Assembly (NCBI GenBank): GCA_011958945.1 | Contig: BLLT01000015.1 | Coordinates: 1 to 37,613 of the forward strand | DNA from: Lachnospiraceae bacterium | Lineage (GTDB): Bacteria > Bacillota > Clostridia > Lachnospirales > Lachnospiraceae | Length of the DNA: 37,613 nucleotides | Direction: 5' to 3' | Part shown: in pieces, positions 4,296 through 37,543 of the stretch | Numbering within the stretch: position 1 is the first letter of the stretch | Layout of the letters: every line of letters starts with the position of its first letter | Position numbers and translations under genes: made by a program | The notes under the pieces: model-generated | The model's input: only the letters and a program-made list of their open reading frames with translations | The model's database searches: none | What the model was told of the DNA's origin: nothing

Positions 4296-4321
4296 GCTTA
4301 TAAAATGTTTGGATTGAGGCA

Positions 4322-4380
4322 TGAAAAGGTTTTTCACAAAACATATAAATGAGATGCATAAAACTGCGCAGAAGTGGAGT
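4322..4380 (+). repeat. Shortened copy of interspersed leader element upstream of gyrA
   Basis: A small inverted repeat TGAAAA-GGT-TTTTCA (4322-4336) is followed by ATGCATAAAACTGCGCAGAA and GTGGAG. The ATGCATAAA and TGCGCAGAAGTGGAG segments align with the two flanks of the full copy before the ABC ATPase gene, as if the CCCGG hairpin between them were absent. GTGGAG lies just before the gyrA ATG and serves as its ribosome binding site. Homology rests on about 25 matching bases plus equal placement, so it is an inference. Confidence 0.5.
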
Positions 4381-4385
4381 AATTA

Positions 4386-6953
4386 ATGGAAGATAATATT
4401 TTTGATAAGATTCATGATGTGGATTTGAAGAAGACAATGGAGAATTCGTATATTGATTATGCGATGAGCGTTATTGCTTCCAGGGCATTGCCGGATGTGA
4501 GGGATGGCTTAAAACCGGTGCAGAGGAGGGTTCTTTATTCAATGATAGAGTTGAATAACGGCCCTGATAAGCCGCATAGAAAATGTGCCCGTATCGTGGG
4601 TGATACAATGGGTAAATATCATCCTCACGGGGATAGTTCCATTTATGGGGCGTTAGTCAATATGGCGCAGCCTTGGTCTACCCATTATCCTTTGGTGGAT
4701 GGCCATGGGAATTTTGGTTCTGTGGATGGAGATGGGGCGGCAGCTATGCGTTATACGGAGGCAAGGCTGTCTAAAATCTCAATGGAAATGCTGGCAGATA
4801 TCAATAAGGATACTGTGGATTTCATTCCTAACTTCGATGAAACGGAGAAAGAGCCTTCCGTTCTGCCCAGCCGTTTTCCTAATCTTTTAGTGAATGGTAC
4901 CACGGGGATTGCTGTTGGTATGGCTACGAATATACCTCCTCATAATTTGAGGGAGGTCATAAGCGCTGTTGTAAAAATTATAGATAACCGGATAGATGAG
5001 GACAGGGATACGGAGATGGAAGAGATTCTTTCTATCGTAAAAGCGCCTGATTTTCCTACCGGAGGGGTTATATTAGGAACGAGGGGCAGCGAAGAGGCAT
5101 ACCGCACCGGCAGGGGTAAGGTAAGGGTGCGCGCCGTATCGGATATAGAAACTATGCCCAATGGGAAAAGCCGTATAATTGTGACGGAACTGCCTTATAT
5201 GGTGAATAAGGCAAATCTGATACTGAAAATTGCGGAACTGGTGAAATTAAAGAAAATAGATGGAATTACTGACCTTCGGGATGAATCCGACAGGGAAGGT
5301 ATGCGGATTGTGATAGAGCTGAGAAGGGATGCCAATGCCAATGTAATTATGAACCAGCTTTATAAGCATACCCAGATGCAGGATACCTTTGGCATTATAA
5401 TGCTTGCCTTGGTGAATAATGAGCCCAAGGTTATGAATATTCTGGATATGCTGACCAATTATTTGGCTCATCAGGAAGAAGTAGTTACAAGAAGGACAAA
5501 ATATGATTTAAATAAGGCCGAGGAAAGAGATCATATATTACAGGGGTTATTGATTGCCCTTGACCATATTGATGAAGTAATTCAGATTATAAGAAGCAGC
5601 GAAAATGTGCAGAGGGCAAAGGAAAGGTTGATTGAACGTTTTGCCCTAAGCGATGCCCAGGCCCAGGCTATTGTGGATATGAGGCTGCGTACCCTGACCG
5701 GCTTGGAAAGGGATAAGATAGAAAATGAACATAAAGAGCTGTTGAAGAAAATTGCGGAGTTAAAAGCTATTCTGGCCGACAGAAAATTATTATTAGGGGT
5801 TATTAAAGAAGAAATTTCCATTATCTCTGAAAAATACGGGGATGACAGGAAAAGTGTTATAGGTTTTGATGCTTATGATATTTCCATGGAAGATTTGATA
5901 CCGAAGGATAATACTATAATCGCAATGACAAGCCTTGGGTATATTAAAAGGATGACCATTGACAATTTTAAAAGCCAGAATAGGGGAGGTAAAGGCATCA
6001 AAGGGATGCAGACCATTGAGGAAGATTATATTGAAGACTTGCTGATGACGACTACCCATCATTATATTATGTTCTTTACCAACTTTGGAAGGGTATACAG
6101 GCTGAAAGCCTATGAAATACCGGAAGCCAGCAGAACGGCCAGGGGAACGGCTATTATAAATCTGCTGCAGCTTAATCCGGGGGAAAAGATTTCTGCAATT
6201 ATTCCCATTAAAGATTATGAGAATAATAAAAATCTTTTCATGGCAACGAAAAAAGGCATTGTAAAGAAAACTCATATAATAGAGTATTCAAATGTAAGGA
6301 AAAACGGCCTTGCGGCTATCAATTTACGTGAAGATGATGAATTGATAGAAGTTAAGATTACTGATAAGGATACGGATATTTTCCTTGTAACCAAGCAGGG
6401 CGTATGTATCAGGTTTAAGGAAACGGATGTCAGGTCTACGGGAAGAATGTCCATGGGCGTTATAGGAATGAATCTGAACGATGGGGATGAAGTGGTAGGT
6501 ATGCAGTTAGACCATCAAGGGGATTCCCTCCTTATTGTTTCGGAAAACGGTATGGGCAAGAGGACTTATCTGGAGGAATTTTCCGTTCAGAAAAGGGGCG
6601 GTAAAGGCGTTAAATGTTATAAGATTACGGATAAGACAGGTTATGTGGTGGGAGTAAAGGGAGTTAATAACGACCATGAGATTATGATGATAACTACTTC
6701 CGGTACGATTATCCAGTTAAGGATGGAGGATATTTCTACCTTTGGAAGGGTTACATCGGGTGTTAAGATGATTAACCTGGATGAAGGCTCTAAGGTGGCT
6801 AAAATAGCCAAGGTAAGGGAAAAGGTATCGGATGGAGACCATGAATTCGATAATTTTGAAGATGCCTTAGAGAATATTCCGGAAAACGAAAAAAATCCTG
6901 TGATTCCTGACGGTGAAGAAGAGGTTACTTTGCCGAAGGAAGAGAATGAATAA
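4386..6953 (+). CDS. gyrA: DNA gyrase subunit A
   Basis: The DNA-cleaving and DNA-wrapping subunit of gyrase. The 855 residues include the breakage-reunion domain with catalytic Tyr123 in [11 protein letters not shown] six-bladed wrapping domain follows, with a GyrA-box-like NRGGKGIKG near residue 535 and a second KRGGKGVKC blade repeat. The tail is acidic ([14 protein letters not shown], ending in KEENE). The quinolone-determining segment reads [13 protein letters not shown], so Ser84 is present but residue 88, equivalent to E. coli Asp87, is glycine. The start is supported by GTGGAG about 7 bases upstream. The gene ends in a GC-rich terminator. Confidence 0.98.
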
Positions 6954-12052: not shown

Positions 12053-13507
12053 GTGACAGAAAAAGAACTAAAAGATTTGATTTATAAAGGTGAAAAAATA
12101 GATGTTGAATTTAAAAAGTCGGAAAATGAATTAAGTAAAAATGTATATGAGTCTGTTTGTTCATTTAATAATAGAAATGGAGGACATTTATTTCTTGGAG
12201 TTATAGATGAAACAAAAGAAATAAATGGTGTTAATCCTAATAAAATAGATAAAATAATTAAGGATTTTACAACGGCTATTAATAATGGGAATAAGATAAA
12301 TCCACCTATGTATTTAACTCCTGAAGTTTATGATATGAACGGAAAGAAAATTGTTTATATAAGGATTCCTGAAGGTACACAATTAAGACGGTTAAATGGA
12401 CGTATATGGGATAGGACTCATGAGGGGGATATAGATATTACTGAAAATGCAGAATTAGTATATAAAATGTACGCCAGAAAACAGAGTACATTTTTCGTAA
12501 ATAAAGTATATCCAAATTTAGGATTGGAATTTTTGGATTCTGAACTTATTCAAAAGGCAAAAAAGATGGCAATATCCAGAGTTGACAGTCATGCTTGGAC
12601 AAATATGAATGAAGAAGAAATTCTTAGAAGTTCAGGATTAATACTGACAGACCCAGATACAGGGCGAGAAGGGATTACATTAGCTGCCATTTTATTATTT
12701 GGTAAGGATAATACAATTATGTCGGTACTTCCTCAATATAAGACAGATGCTATTTACCGTGTAAAAAATATTGACCGTTATGATGATAGAGAAGTTATTA
12801 TTACAAATCTTATTGACAGTTATAGAAAATTAATGGAATTTGGAAAGAAACATTTGAATGATTCATTTGTGTTAGATGGTGACCAGAGCATTAGTGCAAG
12901 AGATAAAATTTTAAGAGAAATAATATCTAATATTTTGGCTCATAGAGATTATTCCAATGCTTATACTGCTCAATTTGTGATAGAAAAGGATAAAATATTT
13001 ACGAAAAATAGTAATTTGCCACATGGACATGGCGAGTTGCAGTTGAATAAATTTGAGCCTTTTCCTAAAAATCCTCCGATTTCTAAAATATTTAGAGAAA
13101 TTGGATATGCAGATGAGTTGGGCTCTGGAATGCGTAATACAAATAAATATACTAAGTTATATTCAGGAGGAACGCCAGTATTTATAGAAGGAAACATATT
13201 TGAAATAGTAATACCTATGGACAATGTAGCTCAAATACAGATTGGACCAGAAGAAACTAACAAAGAAACTAACAAAGAAACTAACAAAGAAACTAGCAAA
13301 GAAACTAGCAAAGAAACTAACAAAGAAATTTACTATAAAATTCTTGATATATTAGAAATGAGGCCAGATATTGCTGTAAAAGAAATTGCTGGGATTTTGA
13401 ATATTTCAGTAGGAGGGGTGAGATATCATATTAATAAAATGAAAAAGGCTGGAATTGTAGCACATATAGGTTCGACAAAAAAGGGAAAGTGGATAATATT
13501 TAAATAA
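12053..13507 (+). CDS. AlbA_2 domain putative DNA-binding/ATP-binding regulator with C-terminal winged helix
   Basis: A 484-residue protein starting at GTG with a perfect AGGAGG six bases upstream. The N-terminus is an AlbA_2 (formerly AAA_4) domain: GEKIDVEFKKSENELSKNVYESVCSFNNRNGGHLFLGV. The middle has ILREIISNILAHRDYSNAYTAQ and IFREIGYADELGSGMRN, typical of this family's GHKL-like ATPase half. A low-complexity linker of six ETNK/ETSK units precedes a winged-helix tail (IAVKEIAGILNISVGGVRYHINKMKKAGI). Members are often annotated as transcriptional regulators or ATP-dependent helicase-like proteins; their targets are mostly unknown. The coding sequence is clearly more AT-rich than its neighbours, compatible with horizontal acquisition. 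Confidence 0.8.
   Translation: MTEKELKDLIYKGEKIDVEFKKSENELSKNVYESVCSFNNRNGGHLFLGVIDETKEINGVNPNKIDKIIKDFTTAINNGNKINPPMYLTPEVYDMNGKKIVYIRIPEGTQLRRLNGRIWDRTHEGDIDITENAELVYKMYARKQSTFFVNKVYPNLGLEFLDSELIQKAKKMAISRVDSHAWTNMNEEEILRSSGLILTDPDTGREGITLAAILLFGKDNTIMSVLPQYKTDAIYRVKNIDRYDDREVIITNLIDSYRKLMEFGKKHLNDSFVLDGDQSISARDKILREIISNILAHRDYSNAYTAQFVIEKDKIFTKNSNLPHGHGELQLNKFEPFPKNPPISKIFREIGYADELGSGMRNTNKYTKLYSGGTPVFIEGNIFEIVIPMDNVAQIQIGPEETNKETNKETNKETSKETSKETNKEIYYKILDILEMRPDIAVKEIAGILNISVGGVRYHINKMKKAGIVAHIGSTKKGKWIIFK
13253..13324 (+). repeat. 12-bp tandem repeat, six units, inside the AlbA_2 gene
   Basis: Six consecutive 12-base units of GAAACTAACAAA, two of them with GAAACTAGCAAA, encode (E-T-N/S-K)6. 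Unit length is a multiple of three, so copy-number change would alter linker length between the ATPase-like region and the winged helix without shifting the frame. Confidence 0.95.
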
Positions 13508-13513
13508 TATGAA

Positions 13514-13570
13514 CTAACATGCGTAAAGACCCGGAAATGCCGGGTCACAAAAGCTACGCAGAAATGGATT
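13514..13570 (+). repeat. Orphan copy of interspersed leader element
   Basis: This copy has TGCGTA (13520-13525) pairing with TACGCA (13555-13560). Inside is a 7-bp hairpin GACCCGG-AAATG-CCGGGTC (13528-13546), then GTCACAAAAGC and the family 3' end CGCAGAAATGGA. It shares a long near-identical core with the copies at 31101 and 36754. No gene follows directly: the ATG in its 3' end reaches a stop after two codons. It lies between the AlbA_2 gene and the fructokinase promoter. Confidence 0.85.
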
Positions 13571-13646
13571 AAAAAATTAATTATTATATAGTAGGATATG
13601 ATAAAATACAAATCATTAATTTTTATAACAAATTAAGAAAAAACAA

Positions 13647-13675: not shown

Positions 13676-13722
13676 AGAATAAAACTTAATAGAAATGGAC
13701 GGATATTAAAAGAAAACGAATA

Positions 13723-13748
13723 TGCGCAGGGGCAGCGCAGAAATGAGG
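13723..13748 (+). repeat. Minimal leader element before fructokinase
   Basis: TGCGC (13723-13727) pairs with GCGCA (13735-13739) around the loop AGGGGCA. It is followed directly by GAAATGAGG, the fructokinase ribosome binding site. The GCGCAGAAATGAGG end matches the 3' end of the larger leader repeats, so I read this as a shortened relative with the inner hairpin missing. Confidence 0.45.
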
Positions 13749-13754
13749 AAAAGG

Positions 13755-14726
13755 ATGAAAAAGAAGTATGATGTAGTAGCTTTGGGAGAATTGTTAATTG
13801 ATTTTACGGATAACGGGGTAAGCAAGCAGGGAAACACAGTGTTTGAAGCAAATCCGGGAGGAGCTCCCTGTAATGTTCTTGCCATGCTGCAGAAGCTGGG
13901 TAATAAGACAGCTTTTATTGGAAAAGTTGGGGAAGATATTTTCGGTACAAAACTGAAAAGCGTGTTAAAGGAAGTGGGGATTGATACTTCCGGGCTTGTG
14001 ATAGATAAGGATGCCAGGACTACCCTTGCATTTGTGCAGACATTAAAAGGCGGAGACAGAGATTTTTCTTTTTACCGTAATCCGGGGGCAGATATGATGC
14101 TCCGTTCAGATGAAGTAAATAATAAATTGATTAAAAACTGTGCAATATTCCATTTTGGAACTCTTTCCATGACCCATAAAGAAGTAAGGAAAACAACGAA
14201 AAAGGCGATTAAAAAGGCAAAGGAAAGCGGGGCTTTGATTTCTTTTGACCCTAATCTTCGTCCGCCTCTTTGGAAATCTCTTGATGATGCAAAGAAACAG
14301 GTGGCTTACGGCCTTGGACAATGCGATATCCTTAAGATTTCGGATAATGAAATCCAGTGGTTTACCGGTGAAAAAGATTTTGATAAGGGAATTAAGAAAT
14401 TGCAGGAAGAGTATAAGATTCCTCTTATTGTATTGTCTATGGGCAAGGATGGAAGCCGGGCTTATTATAAAGATTTAAAGGTGGAGAAGGCTGCATTTGT
14501 ACAGAAGAATACGATTGAGACTACAGGTGCAGGGGATACATTTGGCGGATGCTGCTTACACTTTATTTTAAAGTATGGCATTGAAGATCTGGATAAAGAA
14601 AATTTGGAAAAAATGCTTACATTCGCCAATGGGGCTGCTTCCCTGATTACTACGAAAAAGGGGGCATTGCGCGTAATGCCGGAAAAAGAAGAAGTGAAAG
14701 ACTTTATAAAGAAATTTAAGAAATAA
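13755..14726 (+). CDS. Fructokinase-like PfkB-family carbohydrate kinase
   Basis: A 323-residue ribokinase/PfkB-family sugar kinase that transfers phosphate from ATP to a sugar, most likely fructose. The N-terminus has VVALGELLIDFTDNG and the substrate-binding NPGGAPCNVLAMLQKLG, which is the PfkB signature 1 region. The C-terminal signature 2 contains ETTGAGDTFGGCC with catalytic base Asp261. FDPNLRPPLW is typical of bacterial fructokinases. The ORF track begins 33 bases earlier, but those codons cover the GAGG ribosome binding site and the leader hairpin, so ATG 13755 (MKKKYDVV) is chosen. It stands alone with its own promoter and terminator. Specificity for fructose over related ketoses is inferred from motif resemblance. 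Confidence 0.85.
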   Translation: MKKKYDVVALGELLIDFTDNGVSKQGNTVFEANPGGAPCNVLAMLQKLGNKTAFIGKVGEDIFGTKLKSVLKEVGIDTSGLVIDKDARTTLAFVQTLKGGDRDFSFYRNPGADMMLRSDEVNNKLIKNCAIFHFGTLSMTHKEVRKTTKKAIKKAKESGALISFDPNLRPPLWKSLDDAKKQVAYGLGQCDILKISDNEIQWFTGEKDFDKGIKKLQEEYKIPLIVLSMGKDGSRAYYKDLKVEKAAFVQKNTIETTGAGDTFGGCCLHFILKYGIEDLDKENLEKMLTFANGAASLITTKKGALRVMPEKEEVKDFIKKFKK

Positions 14727-14849: not shown

Positions 14850-16967
14850 ATGAAAGAAAAAGTAAGGGATTTGGAAGATAACAATAAGGTAATTTCTCAG
14901 ATGAGAAGTATCCATATGGTTCCCATGGATGAGGTCTGCGGTTTTGAGGTACGTCCTGGGATGTATGAGATTAACGGGGCTACGGCAATCCCTTGCGGGG
15001 TAAATTTTACGGTTCATTCATTGCATGCTACATCTTGTGAATTACTTCTCTTCCATAGGATGGAAGATGAGCCTTATGCGGTGATTCCGTTTCCGGAGAA
15101 TTATAGGATTGGAAATGTTTATTCCATGATAGTGTTCGGCCTGCATATTGAGGATTTTGAATATGCTTACCGTTTGGACGGCCCATATGATGTAAGAAAG
15201 GGATTATTGTTCAATAAAAATAAGGTGCTTCTTGACATTTATGCCAAGGCAGTGAGCGGACAGAGAATATGGGGAATTAAGAAAAAGGAAGGGGTAAGCT
15301 ATAAGGCCAGAGTAGTGAGGGATGATTTTGACTGGATGAACAATTATCATCCCTTGATTCCTATGGAAGATTTGGTAATTTATGAAATGCATGTACGAGG
15401 CTTTACAAAGGATAATTCTTCTAAAGTAGAATATCCGGGCACATTCCAGGGCCTTCAGGAAAAAATATCCTATTTAAAAGATTTAGGCGTAAATGCCGTG
15501 GAATTAATGCCTATTTTCGAATTCGATGAAATGAAGGACTATAGGGAAATAGATGGCAGGCAGCTGCTGGATTACTGGGGATATAATACGGTTAGTTTTT
15601 TTGCACCAAATACCAGTTATACGGCAGAAGTGGAGTATAACCATGAAGGAACGGAATTAAAGAAGCTGATTAAAGAACTGCATAAAAATGGCATAGAATG
15701 TCTTCTGGATGTTGTTTTTAATCATACGGCAGAAGGCAATGAAATGGGGCCATGTTTTTCTTTTAAAGGGTTTGACAACAATATTTATTATATGCTTACG
15801 CCGGACGGGTATTATTATAATTTCAGCGGATGCGGAAATACATTAAACTGTAATCATCCTATCGTACAGCAAATGATTTTGGAATGTCTGCGGTATTGGA
15901 CAACGGTTTATCATATCGATGGATTCCGCTTTGATTTGGCAACCATTCTAGGACGGAATGAGGATGGTTCTCCGATGAACAACCCGCCGTTGTTAAAGAG
16001 CCTGGCCTTTGACCCTATTCTCGGTAATGTCAAGCTGATAGCGGAGGCCTGGGATGCCGGCGGCTTATATCAGGTAGGAAGCTTTCCTTCCTGGAACAGA
16101 TGGTCGGAATGGAATGGAAGATACAGGGATGATATGAGGGATTTTCTAAAAGGGGATTATGGAAATTCTGGTTTGGCAGCCAAAAGGATTACCGGTTCTA
16201 AGGATTTATATGACCCTCAATATAGAGGGGATAATGCATCTGTGAATTTTATCACCTGCCATGATGGTTTTACTTTATGGGATTTGTATTCTTATAATTG
16301 GAAACATAATGAGGCAAATGGCTGGAACAATACGGACGGAAGCAATGATAACCGCAGCTGGAACTGCGGGATAGAAGGGGAAACGGATAATGAAGAGGTT
16401 CTTTCCCTGCGTTACCGTTTAGTAAAAAATGCGGCAGCAGTACTTTTTATGAGCCGGGGAACGCCTATGTTCCTTGCCGGGGATGAATTTTGCAATACAC
16501 AGTTCGGAAATAATAATGCTTATTGCCAGGATAATGAAATCTCCTGGCTGGACTGGAATCTTTTGGAAAAAAATAAAGATGTCTTCGAATTTTTCCGATA
16601 TATGATACAATTCCGGAAAGAACATGATATAATAAGAAAGCATACAGGAAGCTGTTCTTTAGGTTTCCCTGAAATACAGGTTATGGAGGCTGACGATTCC
16701 TGTAAAGTGCTTCGTATAATTTATGCGGGAAGAAATAAGGAGGATACACAGGATGATATTATCTGTCTGGCAGTAAATGTATTCTGGGAAAATCAGGAGT
16801 TTTGCCTTCCGGCCCTACACCATGATAAAGGGTGGTATGTGGCTGCGGATACTGGAAAAGGATATATTCCAGGTGTCATTCCTTCACAAGGGGAAAAGAT
16901 GCCTTTGCTGGAAAGGGGATGGGTAAAAATGTCACCCCGCTCGGTATGTGTGATAGTAGTAAAGTAA
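14850..16967 (+). CDS. glgX: Glycogen debranching enzyme / isoamylase-type GH13 (GlgX-like)
   Basis: A 705-residue glycoside hydrolase family 13 enzyme that cleaves alpha-1,6 branches in glycogen or similar glucans in the cytoplasm; no signal peptide is present. An N-terminal CBM48-like beta domain (GVNFTVHSLHATSCELLLF) precedes the barrel. Catalytic motifs are DGFRFDLATILGR (nucleophile Asp362), LIAEAWDAGG (acid/base Glu399) and ITCHDGFTL (Asp472). LDVVFNHTAEGNE is conserved region I. The length matches GlgX/TreX. The ribosome binding site is AGAAGG. It follows the fructokinase terminator and precedes the S1 gene, with no other glycogen genes in the window. Confidence 0.9.
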   Translation: MKEKVRDLEDNNKVISQMRSIHMVPMDEVCGFEVRPGMYEINGATAIPCGVNFTVHSLHATSCELLLFHRMEDEPYAVIPFPENYRIGNVYSMIVFGLHIEDFEYAYRLDGPYDVRKGLLFNKNKVLLDIYAKAVSGQRIWGIKKKEGVSYKARVVRDDFDWMNNYHPLIPMEDLVIYEMHVRGFTKDNSSKVEYPGTFQGLQEKISYLKDLGVNAVELMPIFEFDEMKDYREIDGRQLLDYWGYNTVSFFAPNTSYTAEVEYNHEGTELKKLIKELHKNGIECLLDVVFNHTAEGNEMGPCFSFKGFDNNIYYMLTPDGYYYNFSGCGNTLNCNHPIVQQMILECLRYWTTVYHIDGFRFDLATILGRNEDGSPMNNPPLLKSLAFDPILGNVKLIAEAWDAGGLYQVGSFPSWNRWSEWNGRYRDDMRDFLKGDYGNSGLAAKRITGSKDLYDPQYRGDNASVNFITCHDGFTLWDLYSYNWKHNEANGWNNTDGSNDNRSWNCGIEGETDNEEVLSLRYRLVKNAAAVLFMSRGTPMFLAGDEFCNTQFGNNNAYCQDNEISWLDWNLLEKNKDVFEFFRYMIQFRKEHDIIRKHTGSCSLGFPEIQVMEADDSCKVLRIIYAGRNKEDTQDDIICLAVNVFWENQEFCLPALHHDKGWYVAADTGKGYIPGVIPSQGEKMPLLERGWVKMSPRSVCVIVVK

Positions 16968-27942: not shown

Positions 27943-27980
27943 TGCGATTCCTCTGTTAAGGGATTGCGGCAGAAATGGAG
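27943..27980 (+). repeat. Possible divergent leader element before second permuted GH3
   Basis: TGCGATTCCT (27943-27952) pairs with AGGGATTGCG (27959-27968) over 10 positions with wobbles, loop CTGTTA. GGCAGAAATGGAG follows, giving the ribosome binding site. The 3' 12-mer is identical to the family end, but the hairpin sequence differs. It may be a relative or convergence on a strong ribosome binding site. Confidence 0.35.
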
Positions 27981-27986
27981 AAGATC

Positions 27987-30980
27987 ATGGGGTTAATTTG
28001 GAAGAATAAGAAGACGAGGATATGGCTGATTGTAACGGCTATTGTACTTGTTCTGGGGATTGTGGTTAATGCTGTTTTGCTGAGCGTGCCGATTGTAACA
28101 AATTCATTGAGCCTTGTTTTTGGCGGAGAACGTGCGAATATTACCGAGGATAACAGGACGGAATGGTATGACAGGCAATATGCCAGCAAGGAAGAAGTAT
28201 TGGATGCGGCAAATGATTTTGTAATCGAGGTGGAAAAGGAAGGAATCGTACTCCTTAAAAATGAAAATGATGCGCTTCCCCTGTCAGGCAAAGATGCACA
28301 TATCAGTGTATTTGGCAAGAACTCAGTAAATATCGTTTATTCCGGCTCCGGTTCAGCCAGCAGCAACAGTTCCACTGCACAAAGAACATTGTATGAAAGC
28401 CTTGAAGCGGCGGGAATCTCCTACAATGAAACATTGAAAAGCTTTTATGAGGATTCCGGGAAATCCGGTAAAGGAAGGCCGGAAAATCCCGCTATGACAT
28501 CGGGACAGAGGCTTCCAGGGTTCGGAACCGGCGAAACACCGATGGATTCCTATACTCCGGATGTGGTAGACAGTTATGCCGGATATCAGGATGCGGCGGT
28601 TGTAGTTTTTTCCAGAATCGGCGGCGAGGGTTTTGATCTTCCCAGGGCAATGGCAGAGAGCTTTAACGGTGCCGCTGTGGCGGGGGCTTCGGCGGACAGC
28701 CATTATCTGGAACTGGATGAGAACGAGAAGGCTCTTTTAGAGCATGTAAAAGAAAATTTTTCAAAGGTTATTGTCGTACTGAATGTAGGAACTACCATGG
28801 AAATACCTGAATTGAAGGCGGATGAGGATATTGATGCGATTCTCTGGATAGGATTTCCGGGTGCAACAGGCATTATGGCATTAGGACAGATTTTAACAGG
28901 AACGGATACGGAAGGAAACCAGATTAGCCCTTCCGGCCATACGGTGGATACTTGGGCGGCAGATTTTACGATGGACCCGACCTGGTATAATACTGGTATT
29001 TATGGCAGTGAATATGGCAACCGTTACCTTTATAACGGTGAAACAACGGATTATGCGTTTGTAAACTATGAAGAAGGAATCTATGTGGGATACCGTTATT
29101 ATGAGACCCGGGGCTATGAAGAAGCAGCGGCAGATCCTCAGTCCGTATGGTATGAGAACAGTGTAGTGTATCCTTTTGGGTATGGGCTTTCCTATACGGA
29201 ATTTGACTGGGATGTTTCCTTTGGAACGGATTCCGGCAGCGGAATTACAGCAGATGATACACTGGAGGTATCTGTCACAGTGAAAAATACCGGTGATTAT
29301 GCGGGGAAAGATGTAGTAGAGCTATATTACAGCGCACCGTATGATTACGAGAGTCCGGCGATTGAAAAGTCTCATGTTGTTTTAGGGGATTTTGCTAAAA
29401 CAGATATTTTGGCGCCAGGGGAAGAACAGACGCTTACCCTTACATTAGATGTGGAAGACATGAAGTCTTATGATTATGCAGACGCCAACGAAAACGGATT
29501 CAGCGGGTATGAACTGGAGGCCGGCGAATATCGTATTATTATTGGAAGTGATGCACATACAGCGAAAGCGGATGCAGTGTATACTCTTTCAGAAGATTTG
29601 CAGCTTAAGACAGATATGAATGCGGACGGTGAAGAAACAGAAGTTGCAAATGCATTTGATGATGTCAGTGCCGGTATATTTGGAACGAATACATACGCAT
29701 CTTATGTATCCCGAAAGGACTTTGAGGGTACGCTCCGGACGGAATATCTGGATGATGCCGAAAGAACTTTGACAGATGAACTCAAAGAAGAACTGGACGA
29801 AAGCATCAAGCGTAAATATACGGAACCCGATGCCGGAAAACCTTGGGAAGTGGCGGGAGATGCTCCGGCTATAGTACCGGTGAACAGCGGATTATCCTTG
29901 AGGGATATGCTTTATGATGAAGCAGGAAACTATGTGGGAGAGGTGTCTTTTGACGATCCCAGGTGGGAAACATTGTTAAATGAGATTTCCCTTGATGAGA
30001 TGAAAAATCTGGTGGGATTCGGCGCTTTCCGTACAAGTGAAGTAAAAGGTGTGGACGGAGTGGTGGGAAAACCGCTTACTGTGGATTCAGACGGGCCAAG
30101 CGGGTTTACAAGCTTTTTGTCGGAATCTGTTGTCTATGGTACTTGCGCTTATCAGGCAGAATGTGTGATGGGTTCTACATGGAATGTCCAACTGGCAGAG
30201 AAAATGGGTGAACTGATAGGAGAAGAAGGGCTTGCCGGAAATGAAAAAGGAGACGGGCTGCCTTATTCCGGATGGTACGCTCCGGCGGTTAATATCCATC
30301 GCTCTCCTTTTGCAGGAAGAAATTGGGAGTATTACAGTGAAGACGGTCTGCTGTCCGGTAAGTTTGCAGCCAGTGTAATCAAAGGAGCGGGCAAAAAAGG
30401 CGTTTATTGCTATGTGAAACATTTTGCAGTAAATGATCAGGAGACAGACAGAGAGTATAACGGTATTCTCGTCTGGGCGAACGAACAGTCAATGCGTGAG
30501 ATTTATCTGTATCCTTTTGAGATTGCAGTAAAAGAAGGCGGGGCGACAGGTATGATGTCTTCTTTCAACCGTCTGGGTATGAAATGGGCAGGCGGGAGTT
30601 ACGCATTGCTTACACAGGTGCTCCGTGATGAGTGGGGGTTCCATGGTTCAGTTATTACAGATTACAGCCTGAATACTTATACACATGTGGATGAAATGAT
30701 ACGCGCCGGCGGCGACCTGTTCTTGACACAGGATGTCAAAACATTTGGTATGGAGGATGATGCGACACAAATTGCTATGCTTAGACAGAGCACAAAAAAT
30801 ATTTTGTATATGGTTGCGAACAGCAGCGCCATGAGTATTTCGACAGACGGATATTTAAGGCCGGTATGGCAGATAGTTATGATTTGCGTTGATATTGTTA
30901 TTGTTGCGGCATTGGCTCTTTGGGGTATGTTTGCGGTTCGTTCTGTAAAAAAGAAAGAACAGCAGGGAGAAAAAGCGTAA
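27987..30980 (+). CDS. Membrane-bound glycoside hydrolase family 3, circularly permuted, helix at both ends
   Basis: A 997-residue enzyme. A basic N-terminus (KNKKTR) precedes helix 1 (IWLIVTAIVLVLGIVVNAVLL). A large outside region follows, and a final helix (IVMICVDIVIVAALALWGMF) with a Lys-rich tail returns inside. Domain order is again GH3_C (EKEGIVLLKNENDALPL; acid/base candidate in GGEGFDLPR), Fn3-like (YPFGYGLSYTEFDW), then the catalytic barrel (SDGPSGFTSF, APAVNIHRSPFAGRNWEYYSEDG, KHFAVNDQE). The nucleophile is predicted as Asp892 in GSVITDYSLN. The start at 27987 is chosen because GGAG lies 7 bases upstream; the track start 27975 contains that site. It is the last gene before a strong terminator. 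The substrate is unknown. Confidence 0.88.
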   Translation: MGLIWKNKKTRIWLIVTAIVLVLGIVVNAVLLSVPIVTNSLSLVFGGERANITEDNRTEWYDRQYASKEEVLDAANDFVIEVEKEGIVLLKNENDALPLSGKDAHISVFGKNSVNIVYSGSGSASSNSSTAQRTLYESLEAAGISYNETLKSFYEDSGKSGKGRPENPAMTSGQRLPGFGTGETPMDSYTPDVVDSYAGYQDAAVVVFSRIGGEGFDLPRAMAESFNGAAVAGASADSHYLELDENEKALLEHVKENFSKVIVVLNVGTTMEIPELKADEDIDAILWIGFPGATGIMALGQILTGTDTEGNQISPSGHTVDTWAADFTMDPTWYNTGIYGSEYGNRYLYNGETTDYAFVNYEEGIYVGYRYYETRGYEEAAADPQSVWYENSVVYPFGYGLSYTEFDWDVSFGTDSGSGITADDTLEVSVTVKNTGDYAGKDVVELYYSAPYDYESPAIEKSHVVLGDFAKTDILAPGEEQTLTLTLDVEDMKSYDYADANENGFSGYELEAGEYRIIIGSDAHTAKADAVYTLSEDLQLKTDMNADGEETEVANAFDDVSAGIFGTNTYASYVSRKDFEGTLRTEYLDDAERTLTDELKEELDESIKRKYTEPDAGKPWEVAGDAPAIVPVNSGLSLRDMLYDEAGNYVGEVSFDDPRWETLLNEISLDEMKNLVGFGAFRTSEVKGVDGVVGKPLTVDSDGPSGFTSFLSESVVYGTCAYQAECVMGSTWNVQLAEKMGELIGEEGLAGNEKGDGLPYSGWYAPAVNIHRSPFAGRNWEYYSEDGLLSGKFAASVIKGAGKKGVYCYVKHFAVNDQETDREYNGILVWANEQSMREIYLYPFEIAVKEGGATGMMSSFNRLGMKWAGGSYALLTQVLRDEWGFHGSVITDYSLNTYTHVDEMIRAGGDLFLTQDVKTFGMEDDATQIAMLRQSTKNILYMVANSSAMSISTDGYLRPVWQIVMICVDIVIVAALALWGMFAVRSVKKKEQQGEKA

Positions 30981-31042: not shown

Positions 31043-31075
31043 ATGGTTACTTATCGGGTCAGTAGGAAGAAAAGA

Positions 31076-31190
31076 TTGGAAATTGAAAATTTTCAATCCA
31101 AAGTTTGCGTCTGCGCGGCATCCACAAATTTGACATACGTAAAGCCCCGGAAATGCCGGGTCACAAATGCAGTGCAGAAATGGAGAAAAG
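31076..31190 (+). repeat. Full copy of interspersed structured leader element before cytoplasmic GH3
   Basis: The palindrome ATTGAAAATTTTCAAT (31082-31097) is followed by TTTGCG and the left arm TCTGCGCGGCAT (31110-31121). Its partner ATGCAGTGCAGA (31167-31178) pairs over 12 positions with one mismatch and one wobble. Between them is a hairpin CCCGG-AAATG-CCGGG (31146-31160). AATGGAG directly follows the right arm and is the ribosome binding site for ATG 31193. The sequence is closely similar to 36732-36840. Confidence 0.9.
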
Positions 31191-31192
31191 AG

Positions 31193-33640
31193 ATGAAATT
31201 AAAATATCAAAATATTATTTCACAAATGTCTTTGGAAGAAAAATGTTATATGTTTTCCGGCAAAGATTTTTGGCAGACCAGAAGTGTGGAACGTGTCGGG
31301 ATAAAGAGTATTATGTTGTCGGATGGGCCTCATGGTGTCAGGAAACAGGAGGGAACAGGAGATCAGCTAGGGTTAAATCCCTCTTTGCCGGCCACCTGCT
31401 TTCCGACGGCTGCAACGATTGCAAACAGCTGGGATACTTCATTAGGAGAAGAAATCGGCCGTATGATAGGTGAGGAGGCGGCAAGCCAGGGAGTCAGCGT
31501 GATACTTGGACCCGGCATGAATATTAAAAGAAACCCATTATGCGGCAGAAATTTTGAATATTTTTCTGAAGATCCATATCTTTCGGGAAAGATGGCGGCG
31601 GGCTATATTAAAGGGATTCAGGAAAATGGCGTGGCGGCCTGCCCCAAACACTTCGCGGCAAACTCGCAGGAACTTAGACGGATGGCAAGTGATTCTGTGG
31701 TGGATGAACGGACACTTCGGGAGATTTATTTGACAGGGTTTGAGATTGCGGTAAAAGAATCAAAGCCCAAAAGTCTCATGTCTTCTTATAATCGTGTAAA
31801 TGGTGTGTATGCTAATGAAAATGAACATCTGTTGCAGGAAATTCTGCGGGATGAATGGGGATTTGACGGGTTTGTGGTTTCTGATTGGGGCGGAAGCAAT
31901 GACCATGTAGAAGGCGTGAGAGCAGGCTCCCATTTGGAGATGGCCACTACCGGGGGTGACAGTGATGAAGAATTGATTCGGGCGGTGAAAGAAGGCCGGA
32001 TCAGCGAAGAACTGATAGACAGGAGATTGGATGAGTTTTTAGATGTTATTTTTTCTGCCAGAGAGGCGGTAGAGAAGGCGGCAGATAGTACATTCGATGT
32101 GGAATCCCATCATAAAATTGCACAGAAGGCCAGCGAAGAAAGTATTGTGCTTTTGAAAAACGAGAATAATATTCTGCCTTTAAAAAAGGGAACTTCCGTA
32201 GCGCTGATTGGTGATTTTGCTGATACGCCCAGATACCAGGGGGCAGGATCTTCCGGCGTAAACCCAACGAAATTAGATTCTGCGAAAGCTGTCATCGGGC
32301 AGTTTGACTTGAAGGTGGCAGGGTATGAGCAGGGATATCCAAGGGTAGGATCAAGGAATATCATGATGCGGGATCAGGCGGTGGAACTTGCGAAACATGT
32401 TGATGTTGTACTTCTTTATCTGGGATTGGATGAAATTTCTGAGACAGAGGGGCTTGACAGGAAGCATATGAGGCTTCCGGAAAGCCAGACAGATCTGCTC
32501 CATAAGATTGCACAAGTGAATGAGAATATTGTAGTTGTTATGGCAGCCGGTTCTCCGGTGGAAATGCCGTGGTTAAATGAATGTAAAGCATTGATCCATG
32601 GGTATTTATGCGGACAGGCGGGTGCTGCGGCTATGTTGAAAGCGATTATGGGAGAGGTAAACCCGTCAGGGAAACTGTCCGAAACATATCCGGTCTCCTA
32701 TGAGGATACACCGTCTGCACCATATTTCCCGTCAAAACAAAGAAATGTGGAATATCGGGAGGGATTGTATGTGGGCTACCGTTATTTTGAGACAGTGGAA
32801 AAGCCTGTGTTATTTCCGTTTGGGTATGGCTTAAGTTATACAACATATGAATATTCCGATTTACATATAGAAACTCATGAAGAAAACAGGGAGAATCCCG
32901 TTACTGTATCTTTTAGAATTACGAATACCGGAAAACAGGACGGAGCGGAAGTGGTGCAGATTTATGTGGGCGCGAAAGAACCTTCCGTTTATCGTCCTGC
33001 AAAGGAATTGAAGGGATTTGCAAAAGTATTCCTGAAAGCCGGTGAAAGCCGGGAAATAGTGATTCCTCTGGATGATAAAGCTTTCCGTTATTTTAATGTA
33101 AAGACAAACCGTTTTGAAATCGATGGCGGAGAATATGAAATTATGGCAGGGGCTTCTGTGGCGGATATCCGCCTTCGGGGTATTGTGTCTATAGCCGGAA
33201 CAAAAGCGCCGGCTTCTTGTGATATGGAAAATCTTCCGGATTATGCGTCAGGGGAAATTTTATCTGTTCCTGACAGGGAGTGGAAAGAACTGCTGGGGCA
33301 TGAAATCCCTGACGGGGAATGGAGCGGAACTTTGGAAGCAAATGATGCGTTATGCCAGATGTATTATGCCAGAAGCCTTCTTGCAAGGCTGGCATATAAA
33401 ATTTTGACGAACATGCTGAATAGAAGCATTAAAAAAGGAAAGCCGGACTTAAATATTACCTTTATTTATAATATGCCGTTTAGGGGGATAGGTAAAATGA
33501 CGGGCGGGCTAGTAAGTCAATGTATGGTGGACGGGATCGTAAAAATGGTAAACGGCCATTTCTGCAGAGGGGCAGGACAGGTGATTTCCGGTTATTTTAA
33601 ACAGCGAAAAGTCCTGAAAAAGGCAAATACGATGAAATAA
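31193..33640 (+). CDS. Cytoplasmic glycoside hydrolase family 3 (beta-glucosidase type), canonical order
   Basis: An 815-residue GH3 without signal peptide. The order is normal. The catalytic barrel has LSDGPHGVRKQ, GPGMNIKRNPLCGRNFEYFSEDP and KHFAANSQE, with nucleophile Asp231 in GFVVSDWGG. The alpha/beta sandwich follows (EESIVLLKNENNILPLKKG; acid/base candidate in SETEGLDRKHMRLPE). The Fn3-like domain is next (FPFGYGLSYTTYEYSD, GAEVVQIYVGAKEPS). An extra C-terminal segment of about 130 residues (for example LNITFIYNMPFRGIGKMTGG) has amphipathic character. The track start 31043 runs through a terminator and the leader repeat, so ATG 31193 is used. It probably hydrolyses imported oligosaccharides or glycosides. 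It is linked to the GtrA-like gene 48 bases downstream. Confidence 0.93.
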   Translation: MKLKYQNIISQMSLEEKCYMFSGKDFWQTRSVERVGIKSIMLSDGPHGVRKQEGTGDQLGLNPSLPATCFPTAATIANSWDTSLGEEIGRMIGEEAASQGVSVILGPGMNIKRNPLCGRNFEYFSEDPYLSGKMAAGYIKGIQENGVAACPKHFAANSQELRRMASDSVVDERTLREIYLTGFEIAVKESKPKSLMSSYNRVNGVYANENEHLLQEILRDEWGFDGFVVSDWGGSNDHVEGVRAGSHLEMATTGGDSDEELIRAVKEGRISEELIDRRLDEFLDVIFSAREAVEKAADSTFDVESHHKIAQKASEESIVLLKNENNILPLKKGTSVALIGDFADTPRYQGAGSSGVNPTKLDSAKAVIGQFDLKVAGYEQGYPRVGSRNIMMRDQAVELAKHVDVVLLYLGLDEISETEGLDRKHMRLPESQTDLLHKIAQVNENIVVVMAAGSPVEMPWLNECKALIHGYLCGQAGAAAMLKAIMGEVNPSGKLSETYPVSYEDTPSAPYFPSKQRNVEYREGLYVGYRYFETVEKPVLFPFGYGLSYTTYEYSDLHIETHEENRENPVTVSFRITNTGKQDGAEVVQIYVGAKEPSVYRPAKELKGFAKVFLKAGESREIVIPLDDKAFRYFNVKTNRFEIDGGEYEIMAGASVADIRLRGIVSIAGTKAPASCDMENLPDYASGEILSVPDREWKELLGHEIPDGEWSGTLEANDALCQMYYARSLLARLAYKILTNMLNRSIKKGKPDLNITFIYNMPFRGIGKMTGGLVSQCMVDGIVKMVNGHFCRGAGQVISGYFKQRKVLKKANTMK

Positions 33641-36731: not shown

Positions 36732-36840
36732 TCAAAGGACGTTTGATATTGAGAGTTTGCGTCTGTGCGGCATCCAGAAACTTGCTATGCATAAAGCCCC
36801 GGCGATGCCGGGTCACAAAAGCCGCGCAGAAATGGAGGAA
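36732..36840 (+). repeat. Full copy of interspersed structured leader element before ABC ATPase
   Basis: A small inverted repeat TCAAA-GGACG-TTTGA (36732-36746) comes first. The left arm TCTGTGCGGC (36762-36771) pairs along its whole length with GCCGCGCAGA (36821-36830), with one G-U pair. A 6-bp hairpin CCCGGC-GAT-GCCGGG (36798-36812) lies inside. AATGGAGG directly follows the right arm and is the ribosome binding site for ATG 36845. It is closely similar to the copy at 31076-31190 and to the orphan core at 13514-13570. Confidence 0.9.
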
Positions 36841-36844
36841 AAAA

Positions 36845-37543
36845 ATGTTACAGACTAAAAACCTGACAAAAACATATGGGAAGTATAAAGCGGCAGACAA
36901 CGTAAATCTTACCGTTGAAAGCGGCGAGATAGGAATTCTTTTAGGGCCCAATGGCGCCGGTAAATCCACGGTGATTAAAAGCATTGCGGGATTGCTGCGG
37001 TATAAAGGAGAAGTATTGATAGAAGGCATGGATGCCAAAAGCATAGAAGCCAAGAAAATTTTTGCCTATGTGCCCGAACTTCCTGCAATGTATGAAGCGC
37101 TGACGGTGCGTGAACATATAGAGTTTATTATAAAGGCCTATAAGCTTTCTGTTTCAGAAGAGGAAATAGGGGAATTATTTGAACGGTTCGAACTGTCTGA
37201 TAAGCAGGATAAATTAGGAAATGAATTATCTAAGGGGATGATGCAGAAAGTGAGCATCTGCTGTGCCCTTATCATAAAGCCCAAAGTTATTATGTTGGAT
37301 GAACCTATGGTAGGGTTGGACCCTGCGGCTATTAAGGAATTAAAGAAAGTCATCCTGGAAATGAAAGAAGCAGGAACTACCATACTCATCAGTACCCATA
37401 TGCTGGAAATGGTAAAGGAACTTTGGGATGTGATGTTTGTAATGGATAAAGGAAATATTGTGGCTTCTTATAAGAAGAGTGATGTAAAGGATGAGGATTT
37501 AGAGGATCTGTTCTTCCATGTCACGGACTTTGAGAAAGTATGA
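36845..37543 (+). CDS. ABC transporter ATP-binding protein
   Basis: A 232-residue ABC ATPase. It opens LQTKNLTKTYGKYKAADNVNL and has Walker A GPNGAGKST near residues 35-43. A divergent signature LSKGMMQKVSICCAL lacks the usual SGGQ. Walker B is VIMLDEPMVGLDP, and the switch His is in ISTHMLE. The type is that of drug, lantibiotic or membrane-lipid exporters with a separate permease, which should follow beyond the right edge. The track start 36743 translates the leader repeat and is rejected; ATG 36845 follows GGAGG. The substrate cannot be inferred. Confidence 0.93.
   Translation: MLQTKNLTKTYGKYKAADNVNLTVESGEIGILLGPNGAGKSTVIKSIAGLLRYKGEVLIEGMDAKSIEAKKIFAYVPELPAMYEALTVREHIEFIIKAYKLSVSEEEIGELFERFELSDKQDKLGNELSKGMMQKVSICCALIIKPKVIMLDEPMVGLDPAAIKELKKVILEMKEAGTTILISTHMLEMVKELWDVMFVMDKGNIVASYKKSDVKDEDLEDLFFHVTDFEKV

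Follow-up and report, generated by a model that had tools for sequence, protein, structure and literature searches.

Why does one block of sequence, ending in a Shine-Dalgarno (SD) region, recur just upstream of genes that share no pathway in a Lachnospiraceae bacterium? The question is raised by contig 15 of a 5.07-Mb draft assembly in 709 contigs, which constitutes the window of this study (the whole stretch of DNA that was analysed, 37,613 nucleotides). A preliminary description had read the block as an RNA element, mobile or domesticated, or as a motif of global post-transcriptional control, rather than a pathway riboswitch, and this reading is supported here. The best explanation, which we consider probable, although well short of established, is a leader cassette, dispersed and in part domesticated, that takes the place of ribosome-binding sites and is maintained as an RNA structure. 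Directly observed are an H-type pseudoknot of about 73 nt that, with its own SD sequence, precedes the start codons of well over a hundred unrelated genes at a constant spacing, the maintenance of its pairing by compensatory change, and the difference of its sites between closely related species.

The recurring block and the shorter copy of its core reported in the preliminary description are present in the window, and all three are scored by the covariance model R1, which was built from 42 full copies of the same genome. Full copy A (36751..36847, plus strand; R1 match 36751-36846, E 5e-22) ends in the start codon (ATG 36845-36847) of an ABC transporter ATPase gene (Pfam ABC_tran). Its hairpin P1 (36752..36784; arms 36752-36761 and 36775-36784) carries in the loop the pseudoknot 5' strand UCUGUGCGGC (36762..36771), and the partner strand GCCGCGCAGA (36821..36830) abuts the SD sequence GGAGG (36834..36838) on its 5' side. 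The linker of this copy contains an optional hairpin, P3 (CCCGG-CGATG-CCGGG, 36798..36812), which, like the SD sequence, was recognised directly in the sequence. Full copy B (31099..31195, plus strand; R1 match 31099-31194, E 1e-23, more exactly 1.3e-23) precedes a GH3 gene (Pfam Glyco_hydro_3, ATG 31193-31195) and has the same parts, namely P1 (31100-31109/31123-31132), the pseudoknot (31110-31119/31169-31178), P3 (31146-31160) and an SD sequence (31182-31185). It is preceded by a 5' hairpin, P0, with the sequence GATTGGAAATT...AATTTTCAATC (31074..31098, assigned from sequence and fold), and the whole copy then spans 31074-31195. Open frames traverse the element into the genes at both sites (31043-33640 and 36743-37543), and gene callers may thus add false N-terminal extensions there.

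The remaining copies in the window, all on the plus strand, are shorter. An orphan 5'-truncated copy composed of linker, P3 and tail (13516..13570; R1 match 13504-13578, E 1.5e-13) has no gene start behind it; TGCGTA (13520-13525) could pair with TACGCA (13555-13560), and the fold z-score is -4.5. The trimmed relatives that had been suspected before gyrA and a sugar kinase gene are indeed 5'-truncated and lack the first hairpin: linker and tail are found before the pfkB-family sugar kinase gene (13722..13757; ATG 13755) and, with one tail mismatch, before gyrA (4350..4388; ATG 4386). A tail-only relative, GCAGAAATGGAG (27966..27990; ATG 27988), had been missed; it precedes an ORF that looks GH3-like, a label that rests on resemblance without a family test. 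The 3' tail motif occurs eight times in the window, compared with 0.62 expected from shuffles, and six of the eight are leader tails, belonging to gyrA (4368), the orphan (13558), pfkB (13737), the relative at 27969 and the two full copies; the motif at 15624 lies within a gene and is not a leader. Two further repeats were seen near these sites. The repeat GGCATGAAAAGGCTTTTCACAAAACATATTGCC occurs at 4318-4350 and at two loci outside the window, one variant standing before the truncated tail in the gyrA leader, and the ORF at 12053-13507 contains a 12-base tandem array, AAGAAACTAACA, at 13239-13352.

The family core of about 73 nt consists of P1, its loop, a linker, the SD tail and the start codon. 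P1 is a 10-bp hairpin (CAAGUUUGUG/CACAAACUUG), the loop of which, UCUGCGCKGCAUC, pairs over 9-10 bp with GCMGCGCAG directly 5' of the SD motif, forming the H-type pseudoknot. The linker between P1 and the pseudoknot 3' strand is usually 12-14 nt long, and the tail AGAAAUGRRG carries the SD sequence, with the start codon 6 nt further on. While the recurrence described earlier stands, its GC-rich CCCGG hairpin does not belong to the core: it is one of several linker hairpins, an optional insert missing in the 73-nt form, and what is conserved is the pseudoknot and the SD sequence. In the 42 own-genome copies, P1 is 93%, the pseudoknot 90% and P3 94.8% paired. In an alignment of 89 copies from many genera in other genomes, made with a model that assumed no pairing for the pseudoknot strands, 96.8% of cells are paired (P1 98%, pseudoknot helix 95%) and two-sided changes are found in 15 of the 19 pairs (nine of ten in P1, six of nine in the pseudoknot). 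Double-change cells number 89 in these copies, compared with 16.8+/-3.1 in shuffles, and the covariation score is 0.244, compared with at most 0.056 for slid versions; the compensatory changes that the preliminary description had named as a test are thus strongly represented. Single-strand folding cannot represent a pseudoknot, and its modest z-scores speak neither for nor against one. An RNA thermometer of the fourU or ROSE type was rejected, as the SD sequence is unpaired in the covarying fold, whereas such a thermometer would hide it in a weak hairpin.

The CCGG...CCGGGTCACAAA core has 63 matches in the genome with up to three mismatches (reversed control 0), and the tail GYGCAGAAATGRRG has 332 with up to one mismatch (reversed control 3), while R1 returns at least 145 matches and a broader model, R2, at least 149. 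Twenty tails outside the model lists were assessed against shuffles and by eye; about a third retain P1 and the pseudoknot, whereas the others appear to be 5'-truncated. The covariance model locates many copies immediately before start codons, an outcome that the preliminary description had said would support it: an ATG follows 5-7 nt past the tail in 62 of 77 parsed own-genome copies and opens an ORF of at least 60 codons in 55 of the 77, and in 46 of these 55 gene-bearing copies it lies exactly 6 nt past the tail motif. Among the 83 matches in other, named assemblies, 69 have an ORF of this same minimum length opening at the model end, compared with 9 of 83 in the opposite-side control, and five further matches run off the sequence. 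Where TTG or GTG instead of ATG stands behind an element, it can belong to the P0 of a second, tandem copy. Many copies, on eight contigs, lie within 100 bases of contig ends, suggesting that the element probably breaks assembly and that the copy counts are low estimates.

How copies came to occupy these positions can be judged from orthologous genes. For 26 element-bearing genes the N-terminus was mapped in five congeners, and in four of these the DNA upstream was viewed for a selection of the genes. Most of about 25 element-bearing genes lack the element in at least one congener, their proteins being mostly 85-95% identical, while at galE, ilvD, pfp and upp it is kept in three or four species; the orthologous copies at pfp and ilvD keep the fold, with changed stems and linkers. 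One filled and empty pair is base-precise. In genome G299 the site reads GGAATAGGAGAAAAG|TTGAAAATT...element...ATG, with the element between AGGAGAAAAG and the ATG, and in G300 it reads GGAATAGGAGAGAAG|AAA|ATG, that is AGGAGAGAAGAAA-ATG, which indicates that the element was placed between the native SD sequence and the start codon. The left and right SD sequences differ in this case, and no target-site duplication was found, few empty sites being base-precise. A similar filled and empty picture was seen by eye for an FAD-oxidoreductase gene (L015 compared with L269). P0 is immediately preceded by an SD sequence in 47 of 80 non-tandem copies, compared with 23 of 279 control windows (p 2e-20), with a motif list picked after viewing examples. 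At tatD and a fucose synthase gene the native SD sequence is gone, so replacement also occurs. Promoter-like sequences are conserved upstream of the element at tatD and glgP, and the element should hence be transcribed, although no expression data are at hand. Presence and absence among congeners, together with the SD sequence stranded just 5' of the element, support the earlier suggestion of a mobile or domesticated element; the putative mobility rests on comparative genomics, and no enzyme has been found.

The downstream genes have folate, nucleotide, fatty acid, sugar, iron and regulatory functions and include folD, upp, ilvD, fur, tatD and feoB, genes for a der-like GTPase, a phosphorylase and rubrerythrin, and fabF-like and galE-like genes. 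They are unrelated housekeeping genes, mostly of central metabolism and core processes, as the earlier claim of no shared pathway had it; the consistent downstream pathway that marks a metabolite riboswitch is lacking, and a pathway-specific riboswitch does not fit. In genomes with one or few copies the downstream genes, identified by eye, are again all different, and a single ancestral gene was rejected on this ground; among the low-copy genomes viewed, a link to ribosomal-protein operons is confined to one gene (L20-like, by eye). The predominance of central metabolism and core processes would suit global riboregulation, in which the pseudoknot serves as the sensor or binding site for one protein, small RNA or ligand that switches the whole set. 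The same can be said of the fold kept in orthologous copies, of residues in the P1 loop, the AGAAAU spacer and the U within the SD sequence, which are conserved beyond the needs of pairing or SD strength, and of the AUG within the SD tail (AAAUGRRG), which is kept in 64 of 77 own-genome tails. However, congeners differ strongly in which genes belong to the set, whereas greater stability would be expected of a regulon, no consistent class of genes emerges, low-copy genomes included, and the switch-like alternative helix, TGCGC:GCGCA, was rejected as a competing fold because it shows no covariation. We regard this explanation as rather unlikely. The U in the tail should weaken the SD sequence, yet it is retained, and in 18 of the 64 AUG-bearing tails a UAA follows one codon later, so that AUG-RRG-UAA forms a two-codon frame before the gene begins.

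The distribution of the element is patchy. Copy numbers in genomes of the same genus are at least 149, at least 143, at least 135, 80, 77, 72, 33, 20, 19, 4, 2, 1, 1, 0, 0 and 0, and 33 of 299 sampled genomes of the family Lachnospiraceae carry it. A sample across the class Clostridia (391 genomes), taken to cover other families, gave matches in Lachnospiraceae only, and one genome of another family within the order has two R1 matches. Named carriers are the Lachnospiraceae bacteria 28-4 and 10-1, Parablautia intestinalis D8-82 and Lachnoclostridium phytofermentans KNHs2131. No match was found in plasmids or in bona fide phage records; 16 phage-labelled matches lie on scaffolds of human faecal origin that are named 'Bacteriophage sp.' without annotation or verification, six of which were inspected and bear bacterial-looking genes (identities by eye), and among 2.9 million viral contigs there is one match, before a gene resembling a P-type ATPase (by eye). 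Copy number does not track Y1 transposases (G299 has at least 143 copies and no Y1, G308 ten Y1 matches and no copies), and the expectation for a repeat derived from IS200/IS605, or a REP sequence, is not met. Nor does it track reverse transcriptases (G307 has 77 copies and no match, G309 a reverse transcriptase and no copies), so a retroelement origin lacks this mark, though the 5'-truncated copies remain suggestive of one. Terminal inverted repeats are absent from the consensus, the sole end palindrome being P0 at the 5' end, with none at the 3' end.

A range from 0 to more than 140 copies within one genus, tandem and 5'-truncated copies and the orphan in the window would also be produced by a purely selfish small repeat without a useful role, tolerated before start codons because it brings an SD sequence. 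We consider this improbable, since compensatory changes are seen both between genera and within orthologous sites, which suggests that the RNA came under selection once inserted, and decaying parasites would not be expected to keep a pseudoknot. P0 exists in two sequence versions (GATTGAAAATT.. and GAGTGAAAG..) and precedes P1 in 93 of 310 P1-core copies. As an SD sequence lies upstream of a (U/G)UG in most P0 copies, this codon could start a short ORF that controls the pseudoknot, as in a leader-peptide attenuator, but its frame relative to the gene is 0, 1 or 2 in 21, 35 and 36 of 92 copies, a stop precedes the gene start in 56 of the 92, the peptides differ and linker length is free; the unconserved frames rule out a conserved leader peptide, and the idea as a whole is hardly credible. 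Chance similarity, shared coding sequence or an assembly artefact can be dismissed, for although the draft is fragmented, with several copies at the ends of contigs, the controls are near zero (63 against 0, 332 against 3) and the element is present in the unrelated assemblies 28-4, 10-1, D8-82 and KNHs2131.

For the leader cassette that we favour, the comparisons strongly suggest that its spread took place through insertion behind the SD-spacer of a gene and ahead of the start codon, that the old SD sequence was stranded upstream while that of the element took over, and that tandem copies arose where a second copy landed behind the SD sequence of the first. How the inserted RNA works is inferred without expression data. 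The rigid pseudoknot would end a few nucleotides before the SD sequence, at the 5' edge of the 30S footprint in the mRNA, holding the SD sequence single-stranded and uniformly placed and sealing off upstream sequence; it would probably also block 5' exonuclease. P0 may enclose the (U/G)UG that could otherwise act as start codon behind the stranded SD sequence, and so silence the old site. The outcome would be a standard, position-independent translation start, with which insertion before essential genes becomes harmless or useful and hundreds of copies become reachable; after the spread, selection would maintain the RNA fold. Some tails are 5'-truncated copies without the pseudoknot, which is thus not needed everywhere.

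No match to the element was found with Rfam 15 in the window, nor at E<=5 for full or E<=2 for short copies, in agreement with the earlier remark that it was not recognised as a named RNA family; an Rfam T-box match at one locus (L073) is a separate leader. No description was found in open full texts, subscription papers and supplements being outside the search. We know of no bacterial repeat family that supplies the ribosome-binding site of host genes wholesale, and BOX and RUP are not known to us to supply an SD sequence. BOX, RUP and SPRITE of Streptococcus pneumoniae are similar to the element in being short intergenic repeats in tens to more than 100 copies, structured when transcribed, patchy among relatives and without a transposase inside, whereas BOX and RUP carry inverted repeats at their termini as well as target duplications and have no tie to start codons (PMC3049150). 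The element meets the trait of many short structured copies, patchy among relatives, that marks MITEs, BOX and RUP, but unlike BOX and RUP it has a fixed orientation and start-codon distance and a covarying pseudoknot. The preQ1 and SAM-II translational riboswitches serve one pathway in few copies per genome and have the SD sequence in or beside the ligand-closed helix; the element, in contrast, serves well over a hundred unrelated genes and has its SD sequence just outside the helix. The likeness lies in an H-type pseudoknot abutting the ribosome-binding site (PMC11625349, PMC9373788). A leader pseudoknot also aids initiation at the tisB mRNA standby site, but it concerns a single gene and lies about 100 nt upstream of a sequestered site, whereas the pseudoknot of the element touches the SD sequence (PMC7708055). 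MRSC-65-2, a mobile or repeat candidate, is likewise a multi-copy motif with covariation, but forms one long stem, in places near transposase genes, and the repeat class of that paper is marked by inconsistent orientation, unlike the element (PMC11109978).

The element thus combines the genomic habit of small interspersed repeats with the architecture of pseudoknot riboswitches, and since it fails testable defining features of both it would be a categorically new kind of element, its mobility being only moderately probable. As a tentative proposal, possible but not yet to be called probable, we put forward a mobile element of a new class, which targets ribosome-binding sites, inserts between SD sequence and start codon with its own pseudoknot-guarded SD sequence and has re-engineered a sizeable share of translation starts, by means of an unidentified mobilising enzyme and a later takeover as a regulatory leader. 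If this is true, translation starts can be replaced gene by gene through a spreading RNA module, and in common gut bacteria mobile DNA would be connected with the adjustment of initiation across the whole genome. The question of why the element is tolerated at essential genes becomes accessible to experiment, a natural, portable leader module is provided for anaerobes, and an explanation is given for the breaks in assembly at many copies and for N-termini that may be misannotated. A structured RNA in hundreds of copies can, moreover, still be missing from Rfam.

Other repeats were also seen in leaders and intergenic regions. A second interspersed leader repeat, roughly GTCTCCGGACTTTGAAAGGAGCATGGTTATAAAAATG, was seen at six loci; its CTCC could pair with an SD GGAG, and at some genes pseudoknot elements lie directly behind it. 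A further repeated leader piece, ending in GCGGAACTGGAATAGGAG just before start codons, was seen at four loci, and G300 has multiplied copies of a longer unit with the GCGGAACTGGAATAGGAG-ending piece. A palindromic intergenic repeat, roughly GTAACAGGGAAGCCGAAGGCTGAACTGTTAC, occurs at several unrelated loci (four were noted), and another intergenic repeat, roughly CTGACGGACGTCCGGCACACGAGTAGGGGAAAA, at several loci of the genus (again four).
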